DNA of 33,281 nt from a virus. The DNA lies in the IMG/VR virus record IMGVR_UViG_3300048015_000365, positions 1 through 33,281 of that record. One strand, given 5' to 3'. Below are positions 3,977 to 23,198 of this stretch, piece by piece. Positions within the stretch are counted from its first letter, which is position 1. Every line of letters starts with the position of its first letter. The position numbers were made by a program, and so were the translations under genes. The notes below the pieces were generated by a model. That model worked only from the letters and a program-made list of their open reading frames with translations. It had not been told where the DNA came from and made no database searches.

Positions 3977-5449
3977 CTATTTATTGCCGCCCGGCATGTT
4001 CCTGATCTTCGCCGCCAGCGCACGATTCTCGGCCGTGATATCGTTGAGCGTCTTTAGCAGCGCCGCCTTTTGTTCACTGTCCGAATTACCCATGTCCTGC
4101 AACGCCGCCATGACCTGCGCCGTCGCTGCAGCGGCTGATTTCTGCGCCGAGATCGCGTCCCTTGTGCCAGTCGAAGTGTTGTTGCCCTCCGCTGCATGTT
4201 CGCGGGCCATGGCCGTGATTGCCGCTTGCACCGCTTGGGTGACAACTGTCGCCGTGCGCTCGGCATCCATCTCAGCCATCGCCTGTTTGATAGCCTCCTT
4301 TAAAATGTCAGCTTGGCCTTGCGCGGTGCCCGCCTGGGTTTCGAGTTCTGAACGCCGCTTATTGCGCTCGTCCGCATTTTCCTCCACGTAAGCCCCGGTC
4401 GCAATCTCCGCCTCAGCCTGCCCCTTGCGCGTTTGCTCGCGCTTCATGGGATCAGTGCCGTCAAAGGTGTAACCGTAACGTTTAAAAAACATCCAGAAAT
4501 CCTCTTCCTTTTGCACCGCTCCGCCCAGGCCGGAATATTCAGCGATGTTTGGATTTTCCAGCCGCTTGATCAGCGCAATGGCATCCTCAATTTCCTTGAG
4601 TGCCTTTTTTGCGCTTTCAGCATTTTCCTTGGCCGCGCCTTCCGCCGAGGCATTGCCGGTTGGAACTGCTGCCGCCTCCTTGCGTTTGGCCTCAGCCTCG
4701 GCCTCCAGCCTGGCCTGCTCGCGTTTCATCGCTTCGATCTGAGCCTGTTTCTCCGCATCGGAAGCGGCGGACCCCTTTGCCCCGTAGGAAGCTTTGATGC
4801 TCTCCTGGGCCGCCAAGTAAGCCTCCGGGCTCATTTGCCCTTGTTTCGTGGCCAGCGCCGCCAGCGCTTCCTGCTCTTCAATCGCCAGAATCTTTTGCAG
4901 CAAACTGTATTTTTTCTCAAGCGCGGAAACCTCGCGCTGTTCCATTGCCTCGGGAGAATTTGCGCCCTCAGCCACCTTGCGCCTGGCTTCGGCATATTCA
5001 TTCCATGCCTTGGCATTGGACGTGATCGCAGCGCTGTCGTCTTTCACCTCGATATCAATAGGCCCCTTGATCGCCTCCTGGATATCCTCGTAAGTTTTAA
5101 ACAGGAATTCCAGAGCCGCACCCACCCCAAAAGCCGCCACCCCCATCTTGCCCATGGAAAGCGCTCCCAGATCAGACACACCGATCATGTTGCCGAGATC
5201 ATTAGCCAGCCGACGTATCTCCCGACCGCCGCTCTCGGATTTCTCCCCCGTCTTCCCAATCTCCTCGCCAAGTTTCTTCGTGGCGTCCGAATGTTCACCC
5301 AGGTTGGAGGCCGCTTGTTTCGATTGGTCCCCCAGATCGGTAGTGGCACCCTTCAACCGTTGCGTCGCATCAGTGGAAGCCTGAGCCGCATCAACGAAGC
5401 TCGAAGCGTCGCCTTCGATCAGCAGCTTGAATTCTTGGGAGTCGGGCAT
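3977..5449 (-). CDS. Tail tape measure protein (short)
   Basis: 490 residues. The N-terminus 'MPDSQEFKLLIEGDASSFVDAAQAST' followed by a long Ala/Glu/Lys/Gln-rich helical stretch (about 20-75 and 190-290, with heptad-like spacing) is typical of tail tape measure proteins. One hydrophobic segment lies at about 100-120 ('MGVAAFGVGAALEFLF'). It sits just before the hub gene, as expected. It is short for the family, whose members are often 600-1500 residues; at about 1.5 angstrom per residue it would set a tail near 70-75 nm. Strong Ala and charged-residue bias agrees with coiled coil. Upstream is an A/T-rich run (5458-5483) rather than an overlapping gene, so this gene may have its own translation start signals. 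Confidence 0.75.
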   Translation of the reverse strand: MPDSQEFKLLIEGDASSFVDAAQASTDATQRLKGATTDLGDQSKQAASNLGEHSDATKKLGEEIGKTGEKSESGGREIRRLANDLGNMIGVSDLGALSMGKMGVAAFGVGAALEFLFKTYEDIQEAIKGPIDIEVKDDSAAITSNAKAWNEYAEARRKVAEGANSPEAMEQREVSALEKKYSLLQKILAIEEQEALAALATKQGQMSPEAYLAAQESIKASYGAKGSAASDAEKQAQIEAMKREQARLEAEAEAKRKEAAAVPTGNASAEGAAKENAESAKKALKEIEDAIALIKRLENPNIAEYSGLGGAVQKEEDFWMFFKRYGYTFDGTDPMKREQTRKGQAEAEIATGAYVEENADERNKRRSELETQAGTAQGQADILKEAIKQAMAEMDAERTATVVTQAVQAAITAMAREHAAEGNNTSTGTRDAISAQKSAAAATAQVMAALQDMGNSDSEQKAALLKTLNDITAENRALAAKIRNMPGGNK

Positions 5450-5457
5450 ATCAATGC

Positions 5458-5483
5458 AAAATTAAAAATTAAAAATTAAAAAA
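5458..5483. repeat. A/T tandem tract, AAAAATT units
   Basis: Three imperfect copies of (A)AAAATT followed by an A run, directly upstream of the tape measure start on the - strand. A similar tract occurs at 23138-23164. Such AAATTAAAAATT tracts are common dispersed sequence in many environmental bacterial genomes. Here the tract separates the secreted-protein genes from the tape measure gene. Confidence 0.7.
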
Positions 5484-5487
5484 CGGG

Positions 5488-5877
5488 TCATTGGCCCAAC
5501 TGGTTTTTCAGCCGAAAAAACAGTTGGGAGTTTGTGCTGGCCAGGTACACGACGGCCGCTGGGGTCGTCTGTAATTCAAAGGGCTGGTACCAGGTCACCA
5601 GATCTTCGCTCACGCTGACTACGGTGTATTCGTTCGTCACCACCACCACGTTGGACCAGGAGAGGCTGATGACTGTGGGTTGCGCATCCGTCTGCAGCAC
5701 CACCGCGCCCATGTCCAGGGCGTCGGTGATGGGGATGATGGGCGGGGTGAGGTTGATCAGGTCCTGGGCGGGTGACGGGGTTTGCCACAGAGACACAGAG
5801 GCACAGAGGAAAACCAAGGCCAATAATGATCTTGGAGCAAGATGCTCCAAGCACGTTGTTGGGGTCGTAGATTTCAT
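5488..5877 (-). CDS. Small secreted beta-domain protein in tail operon
   Basis: 129 residues; the start ATG (5875-5877) overlaps the stop of the upstream gene by ATGA. The N-terminus up to about residue 38 is a plausible signal peptide with hydrophobic core 'LLALVFLCASVSLW' and a possible cleavage after 'SPAQ'. The mature part contains 'VSVSEDLVTWYQPFEL' and ends 'SQLFFRLKNQLGQ'. This matches the 'S-x-DL-x-W ... FYRL' pattern of short extracellular beta domains that I associate with Verrucomicrobiota secreted proteins. A secreted protein inside a tail gene cluster is unexpected. Role unknown: possibly a moron that alters the lysogen's surface, or a virion part using a host-like fold. Its signal peptide overlaps a dispersed repeat (5784-5812) and a palindrome (5831-5851). 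Confidence 0.6.
   Translation of the reverse strand: MKSTTPTTCLEHLAPRSLLALVFLCASVSLWQTPSPAQDLINLTPPIIPITDALDMGAVVLQTDAQPTVISLSWSNVVVVTNEYTVVSVSEDLVTWYQPFELQTTPAAVVYLASTNSQLFFRLKNQLGQ
5784..5812. repeat. Dispersed ACAGAG-type repeat (host-genome style)
   Basis: Imperfect tandem of ACAGAG/CACAGAGG units. On the + strand it would translate as 'HRDTEAQR', a phrase widespread as a spurious translation of dispersed repeats in Verrucomicrobiota and Planctomycetota genomes. Its antisense here encodes the hydrophobic core of a signal peptide. A degenerate relative is at 8261-8288. Confidence 0.6.
5831..5851. repeat. Perfect 9-bp inverted repeat
   Basis: Arms CTTGGAGCA and TGCTCCAAG flank a 3-base loop AGA. 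It lies near the 5' end of the small secreted gene and beside the dispersed repeat at 5784-5812. It has no T-run on either strand, so it is not an obvious terminator. Confidence 0.65.
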
Positions 5878-6758: not shown

Positions 6759-8344
6759 GGCCCGGTGAGGTAGTTGGTGTGGGTCGAGGTCACCCAGTAG
6801 AGCGCATTGTTGCTGTTCCACAAGATGCCCGCGCCCGGCAGGGCGGCGGGGGCCACAATAGCACTGTTGGCGGCCACAATCAGTTGGCCGGTGATGGTGG
6901 TATTGGCTGAGATCGTCACGGCGGCGACAGATGATGTTCCACCGGCAATTTCGGCGCGGAAATATATATTGGTGACACCAGCAACCAGTGGAGCGGTGAC
7001 GTAATAATATCCGCCGCTCAAAGTGGTGACCTGGCCCGGTAACGACGCCCAAACCACACCGTAAAGGTTGGTGGCATATTGGGCCGTGGGCGGAATCTGG
7101 CTCTGGATTTGCAACACGATATTCGTGGTGACGGAGACGCTCACCATAACGGGAGGCGTGTTCGAGACGATGGTTGGTGCGAGCGAGAGAAATGATTTGC
7201 CGTAGCCGGAGAGCACAAACGCATTGCTGGGATTGTTGACAGACCAAATACCATTGAAAGTGAGCCCATCACCCGCGAGGTTCACATTCGCCTGGGCCGG
7301 ATATTGCGACCAGGTGGCGGCGGCCATGGCGGCAATGCCATCCGCGCCAGCCACGGACACCGCGCTACGGGAGTCGCTGATTTGCGTCACCAGGGTGATT
7401 TGGCCCGTGAAATCATTCGTGGTGCCGAGCAGGTTGGTTTCCGCGTAGCTGTACACCGTGACATTGCTGTAGGTATCAGCCAGCGCCGTCGGGTCATAAA
7501 GCGACACAAGCACCGGCAGCACCGTATTACTGATACTCCCGTTCCAGTTCGTGCCATCAAGCGACCACTGGACATCGTAATTTGGGAAGACCAGGCCGGC
7601 ATTCGTCGGTTGCGCGAATCCAGTGATTTCTGCGGCCGCGAATGACGGCACCGTCCCCAGGATCAGCCGGTTGGTATAGGTGAACGAAAAGAAGGCTGGA
7701 ATGACTGAGGACAAATTAGTGTTCAGACTGATGTAGGTACCGGAATTGACCTGCTGGCTGATGCTGACACTGTAATTGGTGACCGAGACGTTGGTGGTCC
7801 AGGTGATGTCCCCGTAAGGGTCCACCTGGAGGAGTGAGCCCGACGGGAAATTGGTGGTGGCAATGACATTGCTGATGGGCAGCGGGTTGATGAGGGTGAG
7901 GTTGCCAAAGGTGGCATTGCCCCCGTTGGTGAATCCGGCAGTAATATTTGTAACGCTTAAATTCAGTGGCGAGAACTGATTCGTGTTGATCAGGCTCACC
8001 GCGTTAAGGGTGTTCGTGCTCACCGGCACCACGATGTGGATGCCACGCGGCCAGCCGTCCACCGTGATGGTGTAGCCCCACGGCACGAGGTTCGTCGTCA
8101 CCTGTCCGCCGACCGGCTGGATCGTGAACGCCTGCGTCGGCACCAGATTCGTTCCCCACCAAAGCGGCGTCCCGTAAGATTCATCCGGCTGCACCAGGAT
8201 GGAGTAGTTCGCCGCCGTCCCCACGAGATTCTGCATCGAGAACAAGACAGCGGTTGTTTGGCCGCAGAGGCACAAGGGCACGGAGACCAGAACCGCCAAA
8301 GCAATGGCCATTAAGCGGCCGGTAATAAGTGTTTTATTTTTCAT
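6755..8344 (-). CDS. Large secreted beta-sandwich protein in tail operon
   Basis: 529 residues. N-terminal signal peptide: MKNKTLITGR then hydrophobic 'LMAIALAVLVSVPLCLCGQ', with cleavage likely near residue 28. The Cys pair there is not a clean lipobox. The rest is Asn/Thr/Val/Ser-rich with many 'TN' steps and a segment 'NYDVQWSLDGTNWNGSI', like the modular extracellular beta domains of Verrucomicrobiota. The C-terminal part (about 430-529) contains 'GQLIVAANSAIVAPAALPGAGILWNSNNALYWVTSTHTNYL', resembling shaft or fibre segments. It stands between the tail-tube region and the tape measure, where most siphoviruses encode tail chaperones. Role uncertain: surface adhesin expressed with the tail, or a virion decoration. 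Confidence 0.6.
   Translation of the reverse strand: MKNKTLITGRLMAIALAVLVSVPLCLCGQTTAVLFSMQNLVGTAANYSILVQPDESYGTPLWWGTNLVPTQAFTIQPVGGQVTTNLVPWGYTITVDGWPRGIHIVVPVSTNTLNAVSLINTNQFSPLNLSVTNITAGFTNGGNATFGNLTLINPLPISNVIATTNFPSGSLLQVDPYGDITWTTNVSVTNYSVSISQQVNSGTYISLNTNLSSVIPAFFSFTYTNRLILGTVPSFAAAEITGFAQPTNAGLVFPNYDVQWSLDGTNWNGSISNTVLPVLVSLYDPTALADTYSNVTVYSYAETNLLGTTNDFTGQITLVTQISDSRSAVSVAGADGIAAMAAATWSQYPAQANVNLAGDGLTFNGIWSVNNPSNAFVLSGYGKSFLSLAPTIVSNTPPVMVSVSVTTNIVLQIQSQIPPTAQYATNLYGVVWASLPGQVTTLSGGYYYVTAPLVAGVTNIYFRAEIAGGTSSVAAVTISANTTITGQLIVAANSAIVAPAALPGAGILWNSNNALYWVTSTHTNYLTGP
8261..8288. repeat. Degenerate dispersed repeat under a signal peptide
   Basis: CCGCAGAGGCACAAGGGCAC and flanks are a weaker version of the ACAGAG-type repeat at 5784-5812. 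Read on the - strand it encodes 'SVPLCLCGQ', the end of the signal peptide of the 529-residue protein. Confidence 0.4.
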
Positions 8345-8376: not shown

Positions 8377-8770
8377 ACGTGATGTCATTGCAGGAAAACG
8401 TCATTGTATGCAGAACCTGAATTCCGGACTGATCATGCGCGCTGCTGGTCAGCGTGGCGTTCGGGAAATAAACCGTGGTAGCACCCTGGATCGCCTCCAG
8501 GTGCACCGCTTGCCCCTTGAACGTGGACCTAAGCGTATTGATCGCTGCCAGCGCCGCATCCGGCGTGGCGTAGCTGCTTTTCCAAGCGAACGTCACCGAC
8601 CCCACCGTATTTGATTGAGGAATTAACGATGCATTAGCCGCCCCGTAACCAGGTGAAGTCTGCACCTGGTCACGGAACGACGGATCAAATTTTGAGCAGG
8701 CATCCCCACCCGACTCGCTGTAAAGCGCCGAGTAAGAACCCCCGCCCACAATTTTGTAATTCACATTCAC
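8363..8770 (-). CDS. Putative tail protein, unknown family
   Basis: 135 residues. Start ATG at 8770 overlaps the stop of the tail tube gene by ATGA. No signal peptide or membrane segment. The segment 'ATPDAALAAINTLRSTFKGQAVHLEAIQGATTVYF' is well ordered, and the protein ends with a short beta-rich tail. I do not recognise the family. Position right after the putative tail tube suggests a small virion or assembly protein. The stop codon lies in the loop of the hairpin at 8354-8376. Confidence 0.6.
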   Translation of the reverse strand: MNVNYKIVGGGSYSALYSESGGDACSKFDPSFRDQVQTSPGYGAANASLIPQSNTVGSVTFAWKSSYATPDAALAAINTLRSTFKGQAVHLEAIQGATTVYFPNATLTSSAHDQSGIQVLHTMTFSCNDITSTAP

Positions 8771-9762
8771 GCGGAGAACACGAGGATCGGCTGCGGAGCC
8801 CCGATGGTAAACGTCATGCCGGGGACAAACCCGATCTCGCCGTTCCCGAGTTTTGTGCCGCCGAATTCAAACCCCGCCCCCTTGATGTCAGAATTGATCA
8901 AGGAGATCGTTTTGGAGTTCGGCCCGGTCAGCAGCAAGGTCGCTGCATTCGCGCTCGCGCCCAGGCGGAGGCCGAGCGTGTAGGCCAGCAGCGCCGCAGC
9001 GATCTGGCTTTGCGTCGGGCCGACCGGACGGAATTTCACCATGAAGGAAACCGAGTCGAGAACGTAATGCCGCGTCAAGCCCTGCACATCCACCGGGTGA
9101 TATTTAATGTCCGGCACAATTTGAAAGCCGTCCTCGGCCTCCATCGCCGCTCCACCATCGCCGCCGAACCCGGCCAGCGTTCCCCAGGCTGCCGACCAAC
9201 GGCCCTGAACGAAATCAGTGAGTCCGAACGCATCGCCGGGATCGGTCGCACCAGATTCCGTGATGGCGCTTGCAGTTAGTAGGAATGAACTCGCGCCAGC
9301 CAGCAGCGTTGAATCGCCCAGAGCGGTGATCTTGGTCGCTCCAAACAAGTTCGCCTTGGCGCTCAGCGTCAAAGTCGGATGCCCCGTGATCGCCGCCCGC
9401 ACGAAGTTGTAGAGCCGCCCGTCAGGCGTGTAGAGCTTGCACGGCTGATTGGCTGCTCCATGCGGCCTCGTGCCAATTACGAGCGCACCGGCTGCGTTGC
9501 CAGTGCCGCTCGCCGTCGTCACGCCCAAATAAGACGGAAACAGCGTCGGCAATAAATGCCAGGAGCCGAACGGTGTCACGTCAATGTCCGCCGTCACATC
9601 CGTGACCACCTCCGCAATCTTGCCGAAGATCGCCGCGCCCGCGTCGGCGGTCTTGGTATTGATCGTTACCTTGGCTTGGCCTTGAGCGCCCGACGCCTGC
9701 AACGCAACCGAGTTCACGCCCAGATAGGTTTTCGCCGGTCCCGTGTAAAATGTTTGGCTCAT
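8767..9762 (-). CDS. Putative major tail tube protein
   Basis: 331 residues. The start 'MSQTFYTGPAKTYLGVNSVAL' and the segment 'VVTDVTADIDVTPFGSWHLLPTLFP' have the character of tail tube proteins of siphoviral Mu-like phages: beta-rich, few Cys, no coiled coil. It lies two genes after the putative tail terminator, where the tube is expected. Family membership is my inference from sequence style and gene order. The start codon is preceded by the hairpin element at 9764-9779, and the gene overlaps the next one by 4 bp. No sheath gene lies nearby, which argues for a non-contractile tail. Confidence 0.55.
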   Translation of the reverse strand: MSQTFYTGPAKTYLGVNSVALQASGAQGQAKVTINTKTADAGAAIFGKIAEVVTDVTADIDVTPFGSWHLLPTLFPSYLGVTTASGTGNAAGALVIGTRPHGAANQPCKLYTPDGRLYNFVRAAITGHPTLTLSAKANLFGATKITALGDSTLLAGASSFLLTASAITESGATDPGDAFGLTDFVQGRWSAAWGTLAGFGGDGGAAMEAEDGFQIVPDIKYHPVDVQGLTRHYVLDSVSFMVKFRPVGPTQSQIAAALLAYTLGLRLGASANAATLLLTGPNSKTISLINSDIKGAGFEFGGTKLGNGEIGFVPGMTFTIGAPQPILVFSA

Positions 9763-9763
9763 A

Positions 9764-9796
9764 GTGGTGAGGCCACCACGGGCCGCTGGGGGAGTC
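9764..9796 (-). promoter_or_regulatory. Start-codon hairpin element, copy 2
   Basis: On the mRNA strand a conserved flank (GACTCCCCCAGCGGCCC) is followed by a stem GTGGTG, loop GCCT and stem CACCAC, then one base and the ATG of the tail tube gene. The same design occurs at 12325-12357 and 10928-10960 with different but fully paired stems. Confidence 0.65.
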
Positions 9797-9825
9797 TCCG
9801 CCCAGCGCCCGAAGCGGCGTTAAGT

Positions 9826-10134
9826 TCAGTTGGTTGAGGTTGTGTTTGTTTCCGCCGCGCCAGCGGCCGTGGCCACACCGCTAGGTGTTTTTGCCGCCGC
9901 CGCCGCCGCGATGGATGCTTGCGCCGCCTTCGATGGCCGGTTCTTGAGGGTTTGAAACATCTGCAGCCGGTCCACAAACGTTCCCTCCCAATCCACGAAA
10001 TCCGCCCGGTCATGGCCAGCCGCATTGAACGCTTCCAGTTTGATGCTCTGCGTGGCCAAAGGGTCCTTGCCGAGCGCCGTTAAAGCCGCGTTAGACGCGG
10101 TTTGATACAGATCGAACATTGTTGTTTTATTCAT
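9826..10134 (-). CDS. Small hypothetical tail-region protein
   Basis: 102 residues. The first ~65 residues look helical ('MFDLYQTASNAALTALGKDPLATQSIKLEAFN'), followed by an Ala-rich run and a Thr/Asn-rich tail. I do not recognise it. It lies between the putative tail terminator and the tail tube, so it is probably a late structural or assembly protein. A 63-bp stretch follows before the tail tube start; it holds hairpin element copy 2. The start ATG at 10134 is 10 bases downstream of the previous stop. Confidence 0.55.
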   Translation of the reverse strand: MNKTTMFDLYQTASNAALTALGKDPLATQSIKLEAFNAAGHDRADFVDWEGTFVDRLQMFQTLKNRPSKAAQASIAAAAAAKTPSGVATAAGAAETNTTSTN

Positions 10135-10144
10135 AATTTTGATT

Positions 10145-10927
10145 TTAGTTTGCTAACCAGATTCGCTGCACGCCGCTCGCGATATACGTTTCCCCATCCA
10201 CATACGCTCGCGCGCGCAGCCAGCACCCGCCCTGGGGAATGTTCACTGGCCCCGTATAAAGCGTCGCCGTGCTCTGTGGATAAACCGTCTTGTCCCCATT
10301 GAACGGAAAAGAATCATCCGTCGTGTACCAGATCGCCGCGCCCGGCGTGCCGCTGGCCAGCGCGCACTGAGCCGGGAGCGTTTGCGTCGGCGCTGCCGCC
10401 AGGATCGAAGGAATCTGCACCGCCGTCATTTGCACCAAGCCCAGCTCCATGCACTCAAAATTCACCTGGTAACTAACGAGATTCTCGCTGATGGATTTGC
10501 CATCGGCATCCTTCAGCTCGGCAGGTTCGATGCAAGGCTTGCCTGTCTGCATGTTGCCGATCAAGCCGGTCATGTTCTGATTTTTAATCGCATCGCGGAT
10601 TCGCCGCGCCACTTGGCGGGCCGATTTCTTGATTCCCTGGTCATCGTGATTCAACTCCACGTTTTCAATCACCTGGAATGCGGGCCTGAGCAACATCGGC
10701 CCAAATTGCAGATCGTTGGATACGTCATCCGCGATCACCTGCAGAACGATCACCGCCACGCCGCGCTTGCCGCTCTTGGCATTGATCACGGCCTGCGACT
10801 CCTCGATGCTCTTGGAGAGATTACCTTTCTCCGCCACGACCACCGGGATCAGTTGAAAGAAAGAATCCGTGAGCAGGCAATTCGCCAGCTCGCAGGGCAA
10901 CCGGTCAATGATATCGTAGTTTTGCAT
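10145..10927 (-). CDS. Putative tail terminator with C-terminal CHB_HEX_C-like domain
   Basis: 260 residues. The N-terminal ~175 residues look like a tail-completion or terminator protein ('RPAFQVIENVELNHDDQGIKKSARQVARRIRDAI'), which fits its place right after the gpG-like gene. The last ~85 residues ('LPAQCALASGTPGAAIWYTTDDSFP...TLYTGPVNIPQGGCWLRARAYVDG') match the pattern of the chitobiase/beta-hexosaminidase C-terminal beta domain, often found as a surface module. The fusion is unusual for a tail terminator and could decorate the head-tail joint. The start ATG at 10927 directly abuts hairpin element copy 3. Confidence 0.6.
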   Translation of the reverse strand: MQNYDIIDRLPCELANCLLTDSFFQLIPVVVAEKGNLSKSIEESQAVINAKSGKRGVAVIVLQVIADDVSNDLQFGPMLLRPAFQVIENVELNHDDQGIKKSARQVARRIRDAIKNQNMTGLIGNMQTGKPCIEPAELKDADGKSISENLVSYQVNFECMELGLVQMTAVQIPSILAAAPTQTLPAQCALASGTPGAAIWYTTDDSFPFNGDKTVYPQSTATLYTGPVNIPQGGCWLRARAYVDGETYIASGVQRIWLAN

Positions 10928-10960
10928 GTCGTCAGGCGACGACCGGCCAATGGGGGATTT
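10928..10960 (-). promoter_or_regulatory. Start-codon hairpin element, copy 3
   Basis: On the mRNA strand: flank AAATCCCCCATTGGCCG, then stem GTCGTC, loop GCCT, stem GACGAC, immediately followed by the ATG of the tail terminator gene. The stem is a perfect 6-bp pair but differs in sequence from the other copies. Confidence 0.65.
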
Positions 10961-11000
10961 CCCCAGGACAGTCTCGAATATTTTGTTGTTTGTTTTTCAT
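10932..11000 (-). CDS. Possible 22-residue microprotein or leader peptide
   Basis: An ATG at 11000 opens 22 codons (MKNKQQNIRDCPGEIPHWPV plus VA) ending at TGA 10932-10934, five bases before the tail terminator start. The same frame can also begin at 11027, overlapping the gpG-like stop by ATGA (31 residues). The ATG at 11000 follows a leader that resembles the one before the small gene at 18128-18277. The stop lies inside hairpin element copy 3. It may only mark translational coupling across a structured spacer; there is no functional evidence. Confidence 0.3.
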   Translation of the reverse strand: MKNKQQNIRDCPGEIPHWPVVA

Positions 11001-11026
11001 AATCGGGTCCAGCGTCACGCTGGTCA
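10996..11026 (-). promoter_or_regulatory. Post-stop hairpin leader, copy A
   Basis: Begins with the stop TGA of the gpG-like gene, then CC, stem AGCG (extended by CC/GG), loop TGA, stem CGCT, then GGACCCGATTATGAA with an ATG. It aligns without gaps to 18273-18303, about 24 of 31 positions identical, with paired changes in the stem. Confidence 0.5.
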
Positions 11027-11617
11027 TGCTCCCATCTTCCCCCATTCGTCCGTGATGGCTTTGGAAATTTGCTCCTTATACACAGGCCGTGATTCCGCCA
11101 GGCCCGTGCGGAACGGCGCACGCTCCGGCATCTCCACGTCGTAAGCCTTGCCCTGAACCGTCGTCTCTCGCGCACGTTTGTGATTCGCCCTGGCGAACAT
11201 CAGCAGATTGGAATTACCCAGTTGCTTGACCAGATTACCGCGCGCATCCACCCGGTGCCTGATCTTCATGGCCCTGGCCGGATGATAAATGCGTCCGCCG
11301 AACTCGTGGATCGCCGCATAAACCACATTGCTGCCAATCGCGCTCTGCAGCTTCCCACTGCCGATCTCCTGGGTACCGCTCTCGAAAACCGAGCTGCGCA
11401 GGCGACTAGTCACCACACCCAGGCGATGCGCATCAGGCGGGAACGGCCCTTTGCCCGTCATGTGATCCTTTTGAATCTTCGCCACCGCAAATTGATTGGC
11501 CACGTCCATGCCCCGCGCAATCGCGGTCATTATGCGGCCTGGCAACGTCTGCATGCCTGCCACAATCTTTTCCGCCTGCGGTGTCAGCGAGATTTTGAAA
11601 GGCGCGTCCTGGCTCAT
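11024..11617 (-). CDS. Phage virion morphogenesis protein, gpG / HK97 gp10-like
   Basis: 197 residues. Contains 'HMTGKGPFPPDAHRLGVVTSRLRSSV' (about 53-78), 'YAAIHEFGGRIYHPARAM' (about 100-117) and 'MPERAPFRTGLAES' (about 160-173). This is the pattern of Mu gpG and phage virion morphogenesis proteins, where 'IHEFGG' and 'RPF' are hallmarks. These proteins join head to tail or complete the tail. ATG at 11617 overlaps the upstream connector stop by ATGA. The middle of the protein is longer than usual because of an inserted basic segment around 118-155. Confidence 0.75.
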   Translation of the reverse strand: MSQDAPFKISLTPQAEKIVAGMQTLPGRIMTAIARGMDVANQFAVAKIQKDHMTGKGPFPPDAHRLGVVTSRLRSSVFESGTQEIGSGKLQSAIGSNVVYAAIHEFGGRIYHPARAMKIRHRVDARGNLVKQLGNSNLLMFARANHKRARETTVQGKAYDVEMPERAPFRTGLAESRPVYKEQISKAITDEWGKMGA

Positions 11618-12324
11618 GTGAGCGAATACCTCCGATAATATTTCAGCGTCTCCTTCACCTGGGGGACCAGTTCCAGGCTAACCAATGCTTCGCTGCCGCC
11701 CGTTTTGCTGCCCACACCGAGGATGTTGTTACCCACCTTGTCGATGGCTTCCCACGCCTTGCGGCATTGCGTCACCCAGGCCAGCAGCAGGTCGGAGTTT
11801 TCGTTGTTCGGTCCCGGCAAAAGAAATTTGTTCGGATCAATCCCCGCTTGATTGGCTGAGATGTCCGCAGGGATCGCGGCGAAATAGGCCGCGCTCATTG
11901 GGTCCAGATAATTCGCGGCGTCCGGCTCCAGCGTGTTGAAGTAAAACCCACCATTGTACGTCAACCGCACCTGCAGCGGATTCTGGCCGAGGGTGTAGCC
12001 GAAATGGATCAGGCCCTTCTCCTCATCCGCGCTCACGGGCTGGCCGCTGATATCCGTCCAGGCGTCTGGACGGAAAAAGCGCAGCTCAACTTTCGTGAAC
12101 TGAGTCACCGGTTTGCGCCGTGTGTACCAGAACGGACGATCTCCCGTGAACACTTCCTGAAGCCCCTGGGCATAACTCAGCTCGCGGTTGCAGTACCGAT
12201 CAAACGAAGATGCCACGCCGCGCCCAATCGCGAGCAGTTTATCATCAAACGATTTGTCATTCTTCAGCGTGTTGGCGAGCAACTGCCGCTTGAGATAATC
12301 AAGATTTGAGAATCCAGCATTCAT
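11614..12324 (-). CDS. Head-tail connector / adaptor protein
   Basis: 236 residues. The N-terminus 'NLDYLKRQLLANTLKNDKSFDDKLLAIGRGVASSFDRYCNREL' resembles gp6/DUF1320-type head-tail adaptors, which begin with helices that bind the portal ring. A beta segment follows ('TQFTKVELRFF ... WTDISGQPVSADEEKGLIHF ... PLQVRLTYNGGF'), then an insertion and a C-terminal helix pair. It sits between the capsid region and the gpG-like gene, as in Mu-like phages. ATG at 12324 is directly preceded by hairpin element copy 1 and overlaps the stop of a 57-residue reading frame by ATGA. Confidence 0.65.
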   Translation of the reverse strand: MNAGFSNLDYLKRQLLANTLKNDKSFDDKLLAIGRGVASSFDRYCNRELSYAQGLQEVFTGDRPFWYTRRKPVTQFTKVELRFFRPDAWTDISGQPVSADEEKGLIHFGYTLGQNPLQVRLTYNGGFYFNTLEPDAANYLDPMSAAYFAAIPADISANQAGIDPNKFLLPGPNNENSDLLLAWVTQCRKAWEAIDKVGNNILGVGSKTGGSEALVSLELVPQVKETLKYYRRYSLT

Positions 12325-12494
12325 GAGCGGAGGCCCGCTCGGGCCATTGGGGGAGTCTTTGCGGTAGTGCTCGAAGGTTTTTGCGCGGTAGCGCCGTGGC
12401 CACCCCGCAAGGGGTCCGCCGCAGGACGCGGCTCAGGTTGAGGCCGGGCAAATTGACCGGTCCTGATCATGCGATCCTGCGGCGGTTTGTTCAT
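12321..12494 (-). CDS. Small Pro/Arg-rich protein
   Basis: 57 residues from ATG at 12494 to TGA at 12321-12323, overlapping the connector start by ATGA. The sequence is Pro-, Arg- and Ala-rich with no predicted fold ('MNKPPQDRMIRTGQFARPQP'). Its C-terminal codons coincide with hairpin element copy 1 (12325-12357). The overlap supports translation, but part or all of the frame could be a by-product of the structured element. No family recognised. Confidence 0.4.
   Translation of the reverse strand: MNKPPQDRMIRTGQFARPQPEPRPAADPLRGGHGATAQKPSSTTAKTPPMARAGLRS
12325..12357 (-). promoter_or_regulatory. Start-codon hairpin element, copy 1
   Basis: mRNA strand: flank GACTCCCCCAATGGCCC, then stem GAGCGG, loop GCCT, stem CCGCTC, immediately followed by the connector ATG (12322-12324). 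An alternative pairing GGCCCG with CGGGCC is also possible. The TTCGAG about 20 bases upstream of the flank is shared with copy 3. Confidence 0.65.
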
Positions 12495-21312: not shown

Positions 21313-22191
21313 TTATTTCAACCTCACCAGCGCAGCCTGATACGCCGCGATAAAATGGTCCAGGATCAGCACATCCTTGCGCAACTTGTAAACCTCATAA
21401 AGCCCCGATGCGTCCGACATTAGCTTGGTAAACCAGCCGGTATTGACCGCGTAAGAGTGCCACGGCAGGAGTAAGACTTCATTCCCACAATGCCGATAAC
21501 CCATCAGCACCCCCGGCGTGCGCGGCACGATGTCGTTTTCGTTAACCACCCGGAACGTGCGGTCGCCGAGCGCCTGCTCGTACATCGCCGCCCAGGCGGA
21601 GTTACCCACCCGCGGCTGGCCGAACGTATAGACGCCTGCCACCTGGATGCCACTGCGCCGCAATTCCACCGCGCACAGCAGCGCGATAGCACCGCCGAGG
21701 CTGTGGCCGGTGACAAAGACCTGCCCGTCCGGATGCACCGCGAGCAAATTGCGCACCTCCAGGGTGACCCGCGCATCAATCGCCGCATCCTCCAGGAAGC
21801 CAGCATGGACATAAGCCGGATTCATCGCCGTCGAATACCCCAGCCGCCGCATTTCAAACTTTGCATCCTGGATAAAGTCCTTGGTGGTATGCGACCCCGT
21901 GAAGGCCACGATGATTTTGAACCCGCTTGAATCCCTGAAGAGCGTCACCTGCGCTTCGGCGTTCGTATGCGGGTCATGAATATTGGCCTCGGTGTAAGCA
22001 TCCGCCGAATACATCGCGAGCATCTGGGCCAGCCCGACAGAAAAATTGACGGGAGCGGCGCTGGCCGGCTGGCCAGTCCCAACCGCTCCCGGCAAGATCG
22101 GCGATGCGTCCATCGCCGCGGCATTCATGGTTTTGTTAGAATCGCTATTCACGACTAATTTTGGAGTGCGCCAGCCCTCTGGCGCTTTCAC
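21313..22191 (-). CDS. Class 3 (alpha/beta hydrolase) lipase in the lysis-gene position
   Basis: 292 residues from a GTG at 22191. The nucleophile elbow 'TGHSLGGA' gives Ser 164. 'NENDIVPR' gives Asp 220 and 'DHFIAAY' gives His 279. 'VAFTGSHTTKDFIQDAKF' (95-112) fits the oxyanion/lid region of class 3 lipases (PF01764). So the full Ser-Asp-His triad is present and the enzyme should hydrolyse acylglycerols or phospholipids. No signal peptide is visible. The gene precedes the DUF2730 and terminase genes, where Mu encodes its lysis enzymes. Start uncertain: the frame stays open upstream without ATG, GTG or TTG, and an internal ATG at 22128 is also possible. Confidence 0.8.
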   Translation of the reverse strand: MKAPEGWRTPKLVVNSDSNKTMNAAAMDASPILPGAVGTGQPASAAPVNFSVGLAQMLAMYSADAYTEANIHDPHTNAEAQVTLFRDSSGFKIIVAFTGSHTTKDFIQDAKFEMRRLGYSTAMNPAYVHAGFLEDAAIDARVTLEVRNLLAVHPDGQVFVTGHSLGGAIALLCAVELRRSGIQVAGVYTFGQPRVGNSAWAAMYEQALGDRTFRVVNENDIVPRTPGVLMGYRHCGNEVLLLPWHSYAVNTGWFTKLMSDASGLYEVYKLRKDVLILDHFIAAYQAALVRLK

Positions 22192-22278
22192 CCGGATCAG
22201 GAGGCCGCCTCCGTAAATCCCTGATAGAATTTTGCAATCATTGAACTCATATATTTTGGTTTGTTTGAATAATGGCCC

Positions 22279-22294
22279 GTGGCGGCCTCGCCAC
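22279..22294 (+). promoter_or_regulatory. Hairpin element, copy 4 (opposite orientation)
   Basis: On the + strand: AATGGCCC, stem GTGGCG, loop GCCT, stem CGCCAC. On the - strand mRNA it follows directly after the TAA (22295-22297) of the outer-membrane-like gene. It shares loop, stem length and the GGGCCATT flank with copies 1-3 but is inverted and lies after a stop instead of before a start. Confidence 0.55.
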
Positions 22295-22870
22295 TTAGAA
22301 CGTGAACCCGGTCTCCGCCGAAATCACCGGCGCGGCCTGCGCCCTTTGCCGGGCGGAATCCCACTCGTAGCCGATCCGGATGCCGGCATAGGTATTCACC
22401 GTCAGGGATTTTCGGACATCGAGATAAGCGGTGATGGCCGGTGAAGCGGTGTCGAACCGATAACCCGCGAGGAGACCGCCGGAAAGCTCGATGTCTGGCG
22501 TGCTGGCCGGGATGAGGTAATAGCCACCCCCAGCCTGCTCGCTGACGATGATTCCCGCCACGCCCGCGTTGCGGGTGACCGATTCCACGAACAGCCCGGA
22601 CGCCGAGCCATTCGTGGCCGGAGTGCCGAACTTGTAGCGGATGCCGAAGTCAGACGCGATGTTCACCCCCGCCTGGTAAGCCATGCCCAGCGTAATTTCT
22701 GCACTGCCCCGAATCGTCAGATTGGGGTTGGAGCCGGTGAGGTAGCTGCCGACACTCCCAAAAAACGACGAGGCCGGCGCATTGGTGAGGAGGTTGCTGA
22801 TCTGGGCCGGCGCGGATGCGACGGATAGGACGCATAGGACGGATGCGAGGAGGAGTGTTTTGATTTTCAC
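22295..22870 (-). CDS. Predicted outer-membrane beta-barrel-like protein
   Basis: 191 residues from a GTG at 22870, chosen because it gives a clean signal peptide (MKIKTLLLASVLCVLSVASA then PAQ). An ATG at 22993 would add 41 residues of odd sequence. The mature chain shows alternating beta strands ('SAEITLGMAYQAGVNIASDFGIRYKFG', 'ITAYLDVRKSLTVNTYAGIRIGYEW') and ends in 'ETGFTF', a terminal Phe typical of barrel proteins handled by the Bam system. It is the first gene of the late operon after the terminator. It might change the outer membrane during lysis or shield the cell from adsorption; that is inference. The signal peptide is encoded over a GGATAGGAC-type repeat. Confidence 0.6.
   Translation of the reverse strand: MKIKTLLLASVLCVLSVASAPAQISNLLTNAPASSFFGSVGSYLTGSNPNLTIRGSAEITLGMAYQAGVNIASDFGIRYKFGTPATNGSASGLFVESVTRNAGVAGIIVSEQAGGGYYLIPASTPDIELSGGLLAGYRFDTASPAITAYLDVRKSLTVNTYAGIRIGYEWDSARQRAQAAPVISAETGFTF
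22814..22850. repeat. GGA(T/C)G-type short tandem repeat
   Basis: Imperfect copies of GATGCGACGGATAGGACGCA-like units; on the + strand it reads as 'DRTHRTDAR', another phrase frequent in dispersed repeats of Verrucomicrobiota-like genomes. Its antisense codes for the hydrophobic core of the barrel protein's signal peptide. Confidence 0.5.
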
Positions 22871-23053
22871 AGTTTTTATTTGGATGGTCCCCACCCGCGA
22901 GCCGGGGCGAACGCGCGCGACCGCGACACCGGAGGAATGGCCCACGGGTGGGAGAGTTTGGTTTTGGTTAACGGATGTCGCGCTCACAGGCACGACAATC
23001 GCAGAAGAAAGCAGACAACCCCGTCTCCGAGAGACTGAGATTTGGATTCTGGT

Positions 23054-23101: not shown

Positions 23102-23198
23102 CAGGCAACTAAATCACAGGCGGGGCGGCAGTGCAATTCAAAATTAAAAATGCAAAATTTAAAATGGGGTGAAGACCTGACCGGGTTTTACCCCATTG

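Follow-up and report, generated by a model that had tools for sequence, protein, structure and literature searches.

The window analysed here is an entire IMG/VR virus record of 33,281 bases, classified as linear and perhaps a fragment; it carries four copies of a short palindrome, here called the GCCT palindrome. All copies share the core GGCC-N-[6 bp]-GCCT-[6 bp] and stand at the edges of genes. We propose, at about even confidence, that they belong to a small, phage-restricted family of mobile repeats that resemble the repetitive extragenic palindromic (REP) sequences of bacteria and are tolerated at gene edges. A mobile or duplicating palindrome is favoured because of its sporadic presence, its occurrence in both orientations, its placement at gene edges and the slots that it shares with other dispersed repeats. 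Its patchy occurrence among related phages suggests a short palindrome that moves, rather than an on/off switch that the adjoining genes need. The four copies in the window are:

Positions 12325 to 12345, minus strand: copy 1, GGCCC followed by GAGCGG-GCCT-CCGCTC; stem-loop at 12325-12340, 0 nt from the ATG of the gene at 11614-12324; 35.6 bits with our covariance model R1.
Positions 10928 to 10948, minus strand: copy 2, GGCCG followed by GTCGTC-GCCT-GACGAC; stem-loop at 10928-10943, 0 nt from the ATG of the gene at 10145-10927; 34.3 bits with R1.
Positions 9764 to 9784, minus strand: copy 3, GGCCC followed by GTGGTG-GCCT-CACCAC; stem-loop at 9764-9779, 1 nt from the ATG of the gene at 8767-9762; 37.9 bits with R1.
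Positions 22274 to 22294, plus strand: copy 4, GGCCC followed by GTGGCG-GCCT-CGCCAC; stem-loop at 22279-22294.

An earlier sequence-only reading of this DNA had described hairpins abutting the start codons at 12324, 10927 and 9762, and all three are present there. Its count of three stands for start codons, but copy 4 adds a fourth that is inverted relative to the late genes and has no ATG; on the minus strand it lies directly 3' of the TAA of an open reading frame (ORF) at 22295-22993. The flank that it gave, GACTCCCCCA-NN-GGCCC, is exact at 12324 and 9762 but altered to GAAATCCCCCA-TT-GGCCG at 10927, and this C-rich stretch upstream of the core is peculiar to the window phage. As a family signature, GACTCCCCCANNGGCCC was rejected: its ten viral matches all lack the hairpin, which marks the C-rich flank as local to this phage. 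Several copies carry AATAAT or a similar sequence on their outer side. Copies 1 and 3 have 29 nt in common at 83%, as expected of duplication within a phage. Just upstream of copy 2 lies an additional hairpin, TGGGG-AAATC-CCCCA (10954-10972, minus strand), apparently made by a short insertion in the C-rich flank. Against dinucleotide-preserving shuffles of the window, six-bp GCCT hairpins number four (0.10 in shuffles), those preceded by GGCC four (0.003) and those with an ATG at the foot three (0.003). Rfam 15 gave no match above the gathering score in the window.

Judged from its sequence, the window phage is a Mu-like transposable phage. The plus strand has matches to transposition proteins and a Mu Gam-like protein, and the late genes on the minus strand match capsid and portal proteins, with weak matches to terminase and neck-1 proteins. 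Its host is probably verrucomicrobial, because the closest prophage (L016, on contig C53 of genome G001) sits in a metagenome-assembled genome of the Verrucomicrobiia. The capsid matches members of the phage collection at only about 23-25% identity, and the putative connector protein encoded by the gene starting at 12324 has no match among the annotated or isolated phages of that collection. Inside the late region, positions 21313-22191 on the minus strand encode a Class 3 lipase-like protein (Lipase_3, 1.1e-31).

Ten GCCT palindromes were found in total: four in the window, three in G001, and one each in L102, L173 and a prophage of G038. Eight are in the sense orientation and two (copy 4 and the G038 copy) are inverted; all are at gene edges. 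The six convincing copies beyond the window, found by pattern scans together with model R1, bear out the earlier expectation of further copies in relatives. Those at L016, L102 and L173 precede orthologues of the 12324 gene, while L017 and L018 lie on contig C11 of G001, in a region with transposition-protein and tape-measure genes. The G038 copy is inverted and sits at the stop codon of the tail-tube gene. All lie within Mu-like or tailed-phage regions, in a context that includes capsid and portal homologues. The repeat thus stands at the starts of several unrelated genes, three late genes in the window and two in the G001:C11 phage region; no orthologues were found of the gene that follows L018. 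Of the copies turned up by further viral scans, L102 and L173 alone were convincing.

All ten copies keep six perfect pairs. Among the nine distinct sequences, 100% of the cells are paired and five of the six pairs show two-sided changes; none of 500 shuffles reaches the observed values, and slid registers score lower, although the counts are inflated by the relatedness of the copies. The earlier statement that all six pairs are kept while the sequence changes is thereby confirmed. Since every copy keeps its pairs and five of them change on both sides, selection on, or copying of, the palindrome is real. The stems GAGCGG, GTCGTC, GTGGCG, GCGGTG, GTCGTG and GTGGTG are too varied for a single inherited change to explain. 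The GGCC flank and the GCCT loop are invariant while the pairs covary. Such perfect stems with a fixed loop and flank would be predicted alike by compensatory selection on RNA, by selection on a folded DNA hairpin and by template switching (PMC8794818).

The family appears to be confined to phages. In G001 (6 Mb), the loose pattern GGCCNGNNNNNGCCTNNNNNC without the ATG matched 29 times and its reversed control 54 times; of the 29, the three phage copies alone form the hairpin. In 320 genomes of the order, a search for ATG-abutting copies with a G-C inner pair returned only these three G001 prophage hairpins, and a scan of all GTDB genome contigs with GGCCCGTGGYGGCCTCRCCAC gave three matches, one of them real. 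In large genomes, only a portion of the candidates received a score in the covariance-model search. Copies in host genomes, which the sequence-only reading had proposed to look for, were therefore not found outside phage-like regions by these pattern searches, which diverged host copies could escape. Its suggestion of a REP-like repeat landing at gene boundaries fits better than its alternative, given the two inverted copies, the empty sites and the other repeats in the same slot, but a host REP was rejected, no copy lying outside phage-like regions among the matches listed.

Orthologous sites are mostly empty. We read 35 leaders of 12324-gene orthologues, some of them from nearly identical records: the hairpin is present in four and absent from 31, several of which still have an ATGA overlap between the stop codon of an upstream ORF and the start codon, so that such coupling does not need the hairpin. 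It is absent from all six leaders of 10927-gene orthologues and all four of 9762-gene orthologues. That most orthologous leaders lack the hairpin, an outcome named beforehand as refuting, speaks against a translation control element that these genes require; a control element had been the other explanation first put forward.

Other repeats occupy the same slots. In G038 (L408), L180 and L188, the place ahead of the 12324-gene orthologue is taken by AATCGTAAATC-type runs, translated as the tail of a small upstream ORF; the G038 form of this pattern occurs in 57 copies in 24 of 49 host-family genomes, against 0 for the reversed-pattern control. The end of the tail-tube gene carries nothing of the kind in L003, CCAGCG-TGA-CGCTGG-ACCCAA in G043 and the inverted GCCT copy in G038. 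A palindrome of this sister family is also found in the window:

Positions 11009 to 11023, minus strand: CCAGCG-TGA-CGCTGG, then ACCCGATTATG, directly after the TGA of the gene at 11024-11617.

This family is dispersed in host genomes and prophages; in G027 and G038 it belongs to a long interspersed repeat. Further sites in other phages are L020 at 5963, L176 at 326 and 2678, L188 at 12000 and L021 at 6928. It occurs in other phages with a compensated stem variant (CCAACG/CGTTGG), is followed by A[CT]CC[AG]ATTAT, and is often squeezed between a stop codon and the next ATG. Three further repeats were seen in the window. At 5827-5851 (minus strand), a nine-bp perfect hairpin CTTGGAGCA-TCT-TGCTCCAAG, then ATCATTATT, has a layout that resembles the other palindromes. 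Copies of a CCACAGAGACACAGAGGCACAG-like repeat lie at 5780-5806 and 8257-8283, and AAAATTAAAAATTAAAAATT runs stand at two junctions 17.7 kb apart (5445-5507 and 23127-23189), 71% alike over 63 nt.

We postulate that the unit GGCC-N-[6-bp stem]-GCCT-[stem] would spread as DNA, by duplication within a phage and by exchange between phages, and that it probably moves as a whole. Copies would survive where they do least harm, either flush to a start codon (sense) or at a stop codon (inverted). The pairing may stay perfect because it is as a folded single-stranded DNA hairpin that the palindrome is recognised or copied, whether by a transposase acting in trans or by template switching. A secondary effect could arise in the sense copies, where the RNA hairpin would cover positions -1 to -17, the usual place of a Shine-Dalgarno sequence; translation of the downstream gene would then likely rely on ribosomes that complete the upstream ORF at the ATGA overlap. 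The palindrome may both have arisen as a mobile element and have been co-opted locally, for example in stop/start coupling.

Several observations weigh against a mobile palindrome. No transposase, target duplication or movement was seen, and at the Y1 transposase (PF01797) loci of G001, G027 and G038 neither palindrome family lies within about 1.5 kb. Copy numbers of one to four per phage are low, unlike those of REPs. The ATG is 0-1 nt away at each of the five independent sense sites, a spacing tighter than mere tolerance predicts and suggestive of function. Finally, simple duplication does not account for copies with the common long flank, whose loops and flanks are nearly constant but whose stems differ at three of six pairs.

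The spacing at the start codons is also the best argument for the main rival, which we regard as possible though doubtful: a translational operator or coupling hairpin, in which an RNA stem-loop would hide the initiation region of late genes and be opened by ribosomes terminating on the upstream ORF at ATGA, or by release of a protein that reads the GCCU loop. The genes concerned, and the ORF upstream of the first of them, are:

Positions 11614 to 12324, minus strand: 236-aa gene after copy 1, in the head-tail connector position, ahead of the neck-1/tail-completion gene.
Positions 10145 to 10927, minus strand: 260-aa gene downstream of copy 2, with an Fn3-associated/chitobiase-C domain.
Positions 8767 to 9762, minus strand: 331-aa gene downstream of copy 3, with no family match of its own.
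Positions 12321 to 12494, minus strand: 57-aa ORF, MNKPPQDRMIRT...TPPMARAGLRS*, whose TGA overlaps the ATG at 12324 (ATGA).

The 236-aa product, which has no Pfam or PHROG match of its own, is probably a head-tail connector by gene order. A tail-tube-like query from G038 matches the region orthologous to the 9762 gene in L180 and L190 at 27-29% identity, which hints at a tail-tube role for the 331-aa product. All three hairpins do lie upstream of start codons, as originally described, but the one at 12324 consists of the last codons of the 57-aa ORF and is coding rather than untranslated leader. Relatives have comparable short ORFs (MLNQPP[RK]D[RK]M...) ahead of their 12324-gene orthologues, and the stop codon of a 22-codon mini-ORF (10932-11000) falls within copy 2.

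Six sense copies (window 12324, L016, L102, L173, L017 and L018) end in an ATGA overlap with the upstream ORF, and termination-reinitiation at ATGA is a known mechanism (PMC6728339). The three window genes with hairpins have no Shine-Dalgarno sequence, which would suit translation control, but most window genes lack one anyway. Control by an RNA hairpin would further agree with the invariant flank and loop around covarying pairs, and with a 12324 hairpin common to four phages whose proteins are 52-58% identical. It sits poorly with the 31 empty leaders and with the two inverted copies away from starts. RNA folding of six leaders in 76-nt context also speaks against it: the 6-bp hairpin is the minimum-energy fold in one of the six (L016), and five z-scores fall between 0 and -1.5, the remaining one (9762, at -2.4) being owed to other pairings. 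In the 12324 leader the 6-bp hairpin is the centroid, and the minimum is a competing GGCCC/GGGCC hairpin. In nearly all copies the upstream GGCC is able to pair with the GGCC made of the last stem base and the loop; two mutually exclusive hairpins could thus form, and an RNA switch is conceivable.

Mutational covariation is an unlikely explanation. Template switching, in the form of quasipalindrome correction, would recopy one arm from the other, so that a neutral palindrome drifts yet stays perfect; the process can create or maintain perfect stems and yield multi-base compensatory changes (PMC8794818). Copies 1 and 3 differ in 6 of 12 stem bases and in 2 of 17 flank bases, a contrast that fits such recopying. 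The 5' arm of the G038 copy takes in the tail-tube gene end ...TCG TGA, which L003 has without the hairpin, as if the other arm had been copied from the gene end, but codon choice alone would produce this coincidence with a probability of roughly 1 in 18. Template switching also leaves the invariant GGCC and GCCT and the exact placement at start and stop codons unexplained.

A quite improbable variant is a mobile unit that carries GGCC...GCCT along and acquires a newly written stem wherever it lands. One arm would be derived from the target or rewritten, through guide-target pairing or template switching, and the other would complement it. Rewriting of this kind would explain why the loop and flank are constant although the stems vary freely and always pair perfectly; a target-derived arm is hinted at only by the G038 tail-tube stop.

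Selection on a peptide is less probable again. On this account the element would encode a C-terminal tail, M/L-A-R-x-G-L-T-T-stop, on short upstream ORFs, with the hairpin as a by-product, and similar tails do occur at six phage sites (MARAGLRS at window 12324, KARGGLTT at L016, LARGGLTT at L102, MARGGLTT at L173, MASGGLTA at L017 and MARRGLTT at L018). However, every copy encodes alanine as GCC and none shows a synonymous change there, whereas the amino acids encoded at paired stem positions vary freely and the stem remains fully paired; selection therefore does not act mainly on the peptide. At 10927, reading in the frame that has an upstream start gives a different peptide; at 9762 no start lies upstream in the LTT frame; and in relatives the tails at the corresponding place are unrelated. 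Chance, or low-complexity sequence in common, has a negligible probability: some pattern matches elsewhere look like chance copies (L014, L015 and L295, the last with an identical stem where about one such match is expected), but the shuffle test of the window (0.003 expected, three to four observed) and the perfect pairing in all ten copies refute it.

Perfectly covarying stems commonly count as proof of RNA function, and here they occur together with empty sites, inverted copies and competition for slots. The GCCT family therefore offers a compact test case for telling selection on RNA from maintenance of a DNA palindrome. If the sense copies control initiation, they would form a start-codon module that is portable and exchanged between transposable phages in a phylum whose phages have received little study. 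We found no description of such elements for this phage group in the open-access papers searched.

The levivirus coat-protein operator and lambdoid boxB are phage RNA hairpins with a constant loop and a variable stem in messenger RNA leaders. The GCCT hairpin is like them in loop, stem and leader position, but differs in having no known RNA-binding partner, in its inverted copies and in its absence from most orthologous leaders. Six sense copies end in overlaps of the kind seen at ATGA termination-reinitiation junctions, which need no hairpin (PMC6728339), and orthologues of the GCCT sites keep the overlap without one. The start-associated sequences (SAS) and extended SAS (ESAS) of cluster K mycobacteriophages are repeats at the starts of many different genes (PMC3203893). 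Like the GCCT family, they are phage-borne, stand at start codons, have rare copies in the opposite orientation and are absent from the host. The SAS is a constant 13-mer with a Shine-Dalgarno core 3-7 bp from the start, and the ESAS arms do not covary, for which reason its authors doubted an RNA hairpin (PMC3203893). The GCCT hairpin, in contrast, has a perfect covarying stem, has no Shine-Dalgarno sequence and touches the ATG; the SAS 13-mer GGGATAGGAGCCC was not present 3-7 bp before the start in any of the leaders read.

Closer to home, CCAGCG-TGA-CGCTGG-ACCCAATTAT of the same hosts also stands between stop and start codons and shares with the inverted GCCT palindrome a 6-bp stem, a short loop, a 5-nt linker and ATTAT, but it has a 3-nt TGA loop and is a member of the long interspersed repeat. 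REPs, too, are short palindromes that stand in either orientation at the edges of genes, where they sometimes lie within the end of an ORF or provide a stop codon; their GTAG- and CGTC-tagged families are associated with REP-associated tyrosine transposases (RAYTs), and GTAG REPs have been described from Verrucomicrobia (Opitutus terrae) (PMC3733652). Unlike them, the GCCT family has few copies, lies in phage-like regions only, showed no RAYT link within about 1.5 kb of the three Y1 transposase sites, and varies its stem while loop and flank stay fixed; the copy alignment has no constant GTAG or CGTC tag at the foot, which is GGCC-N. As a whole, the GCCT family appears akin to REPs and SAS/ESAS but distinct from the former in copy number, tag and host range, and from the latter in its covarying arms and its lack of a Shine-Dalgarno core.

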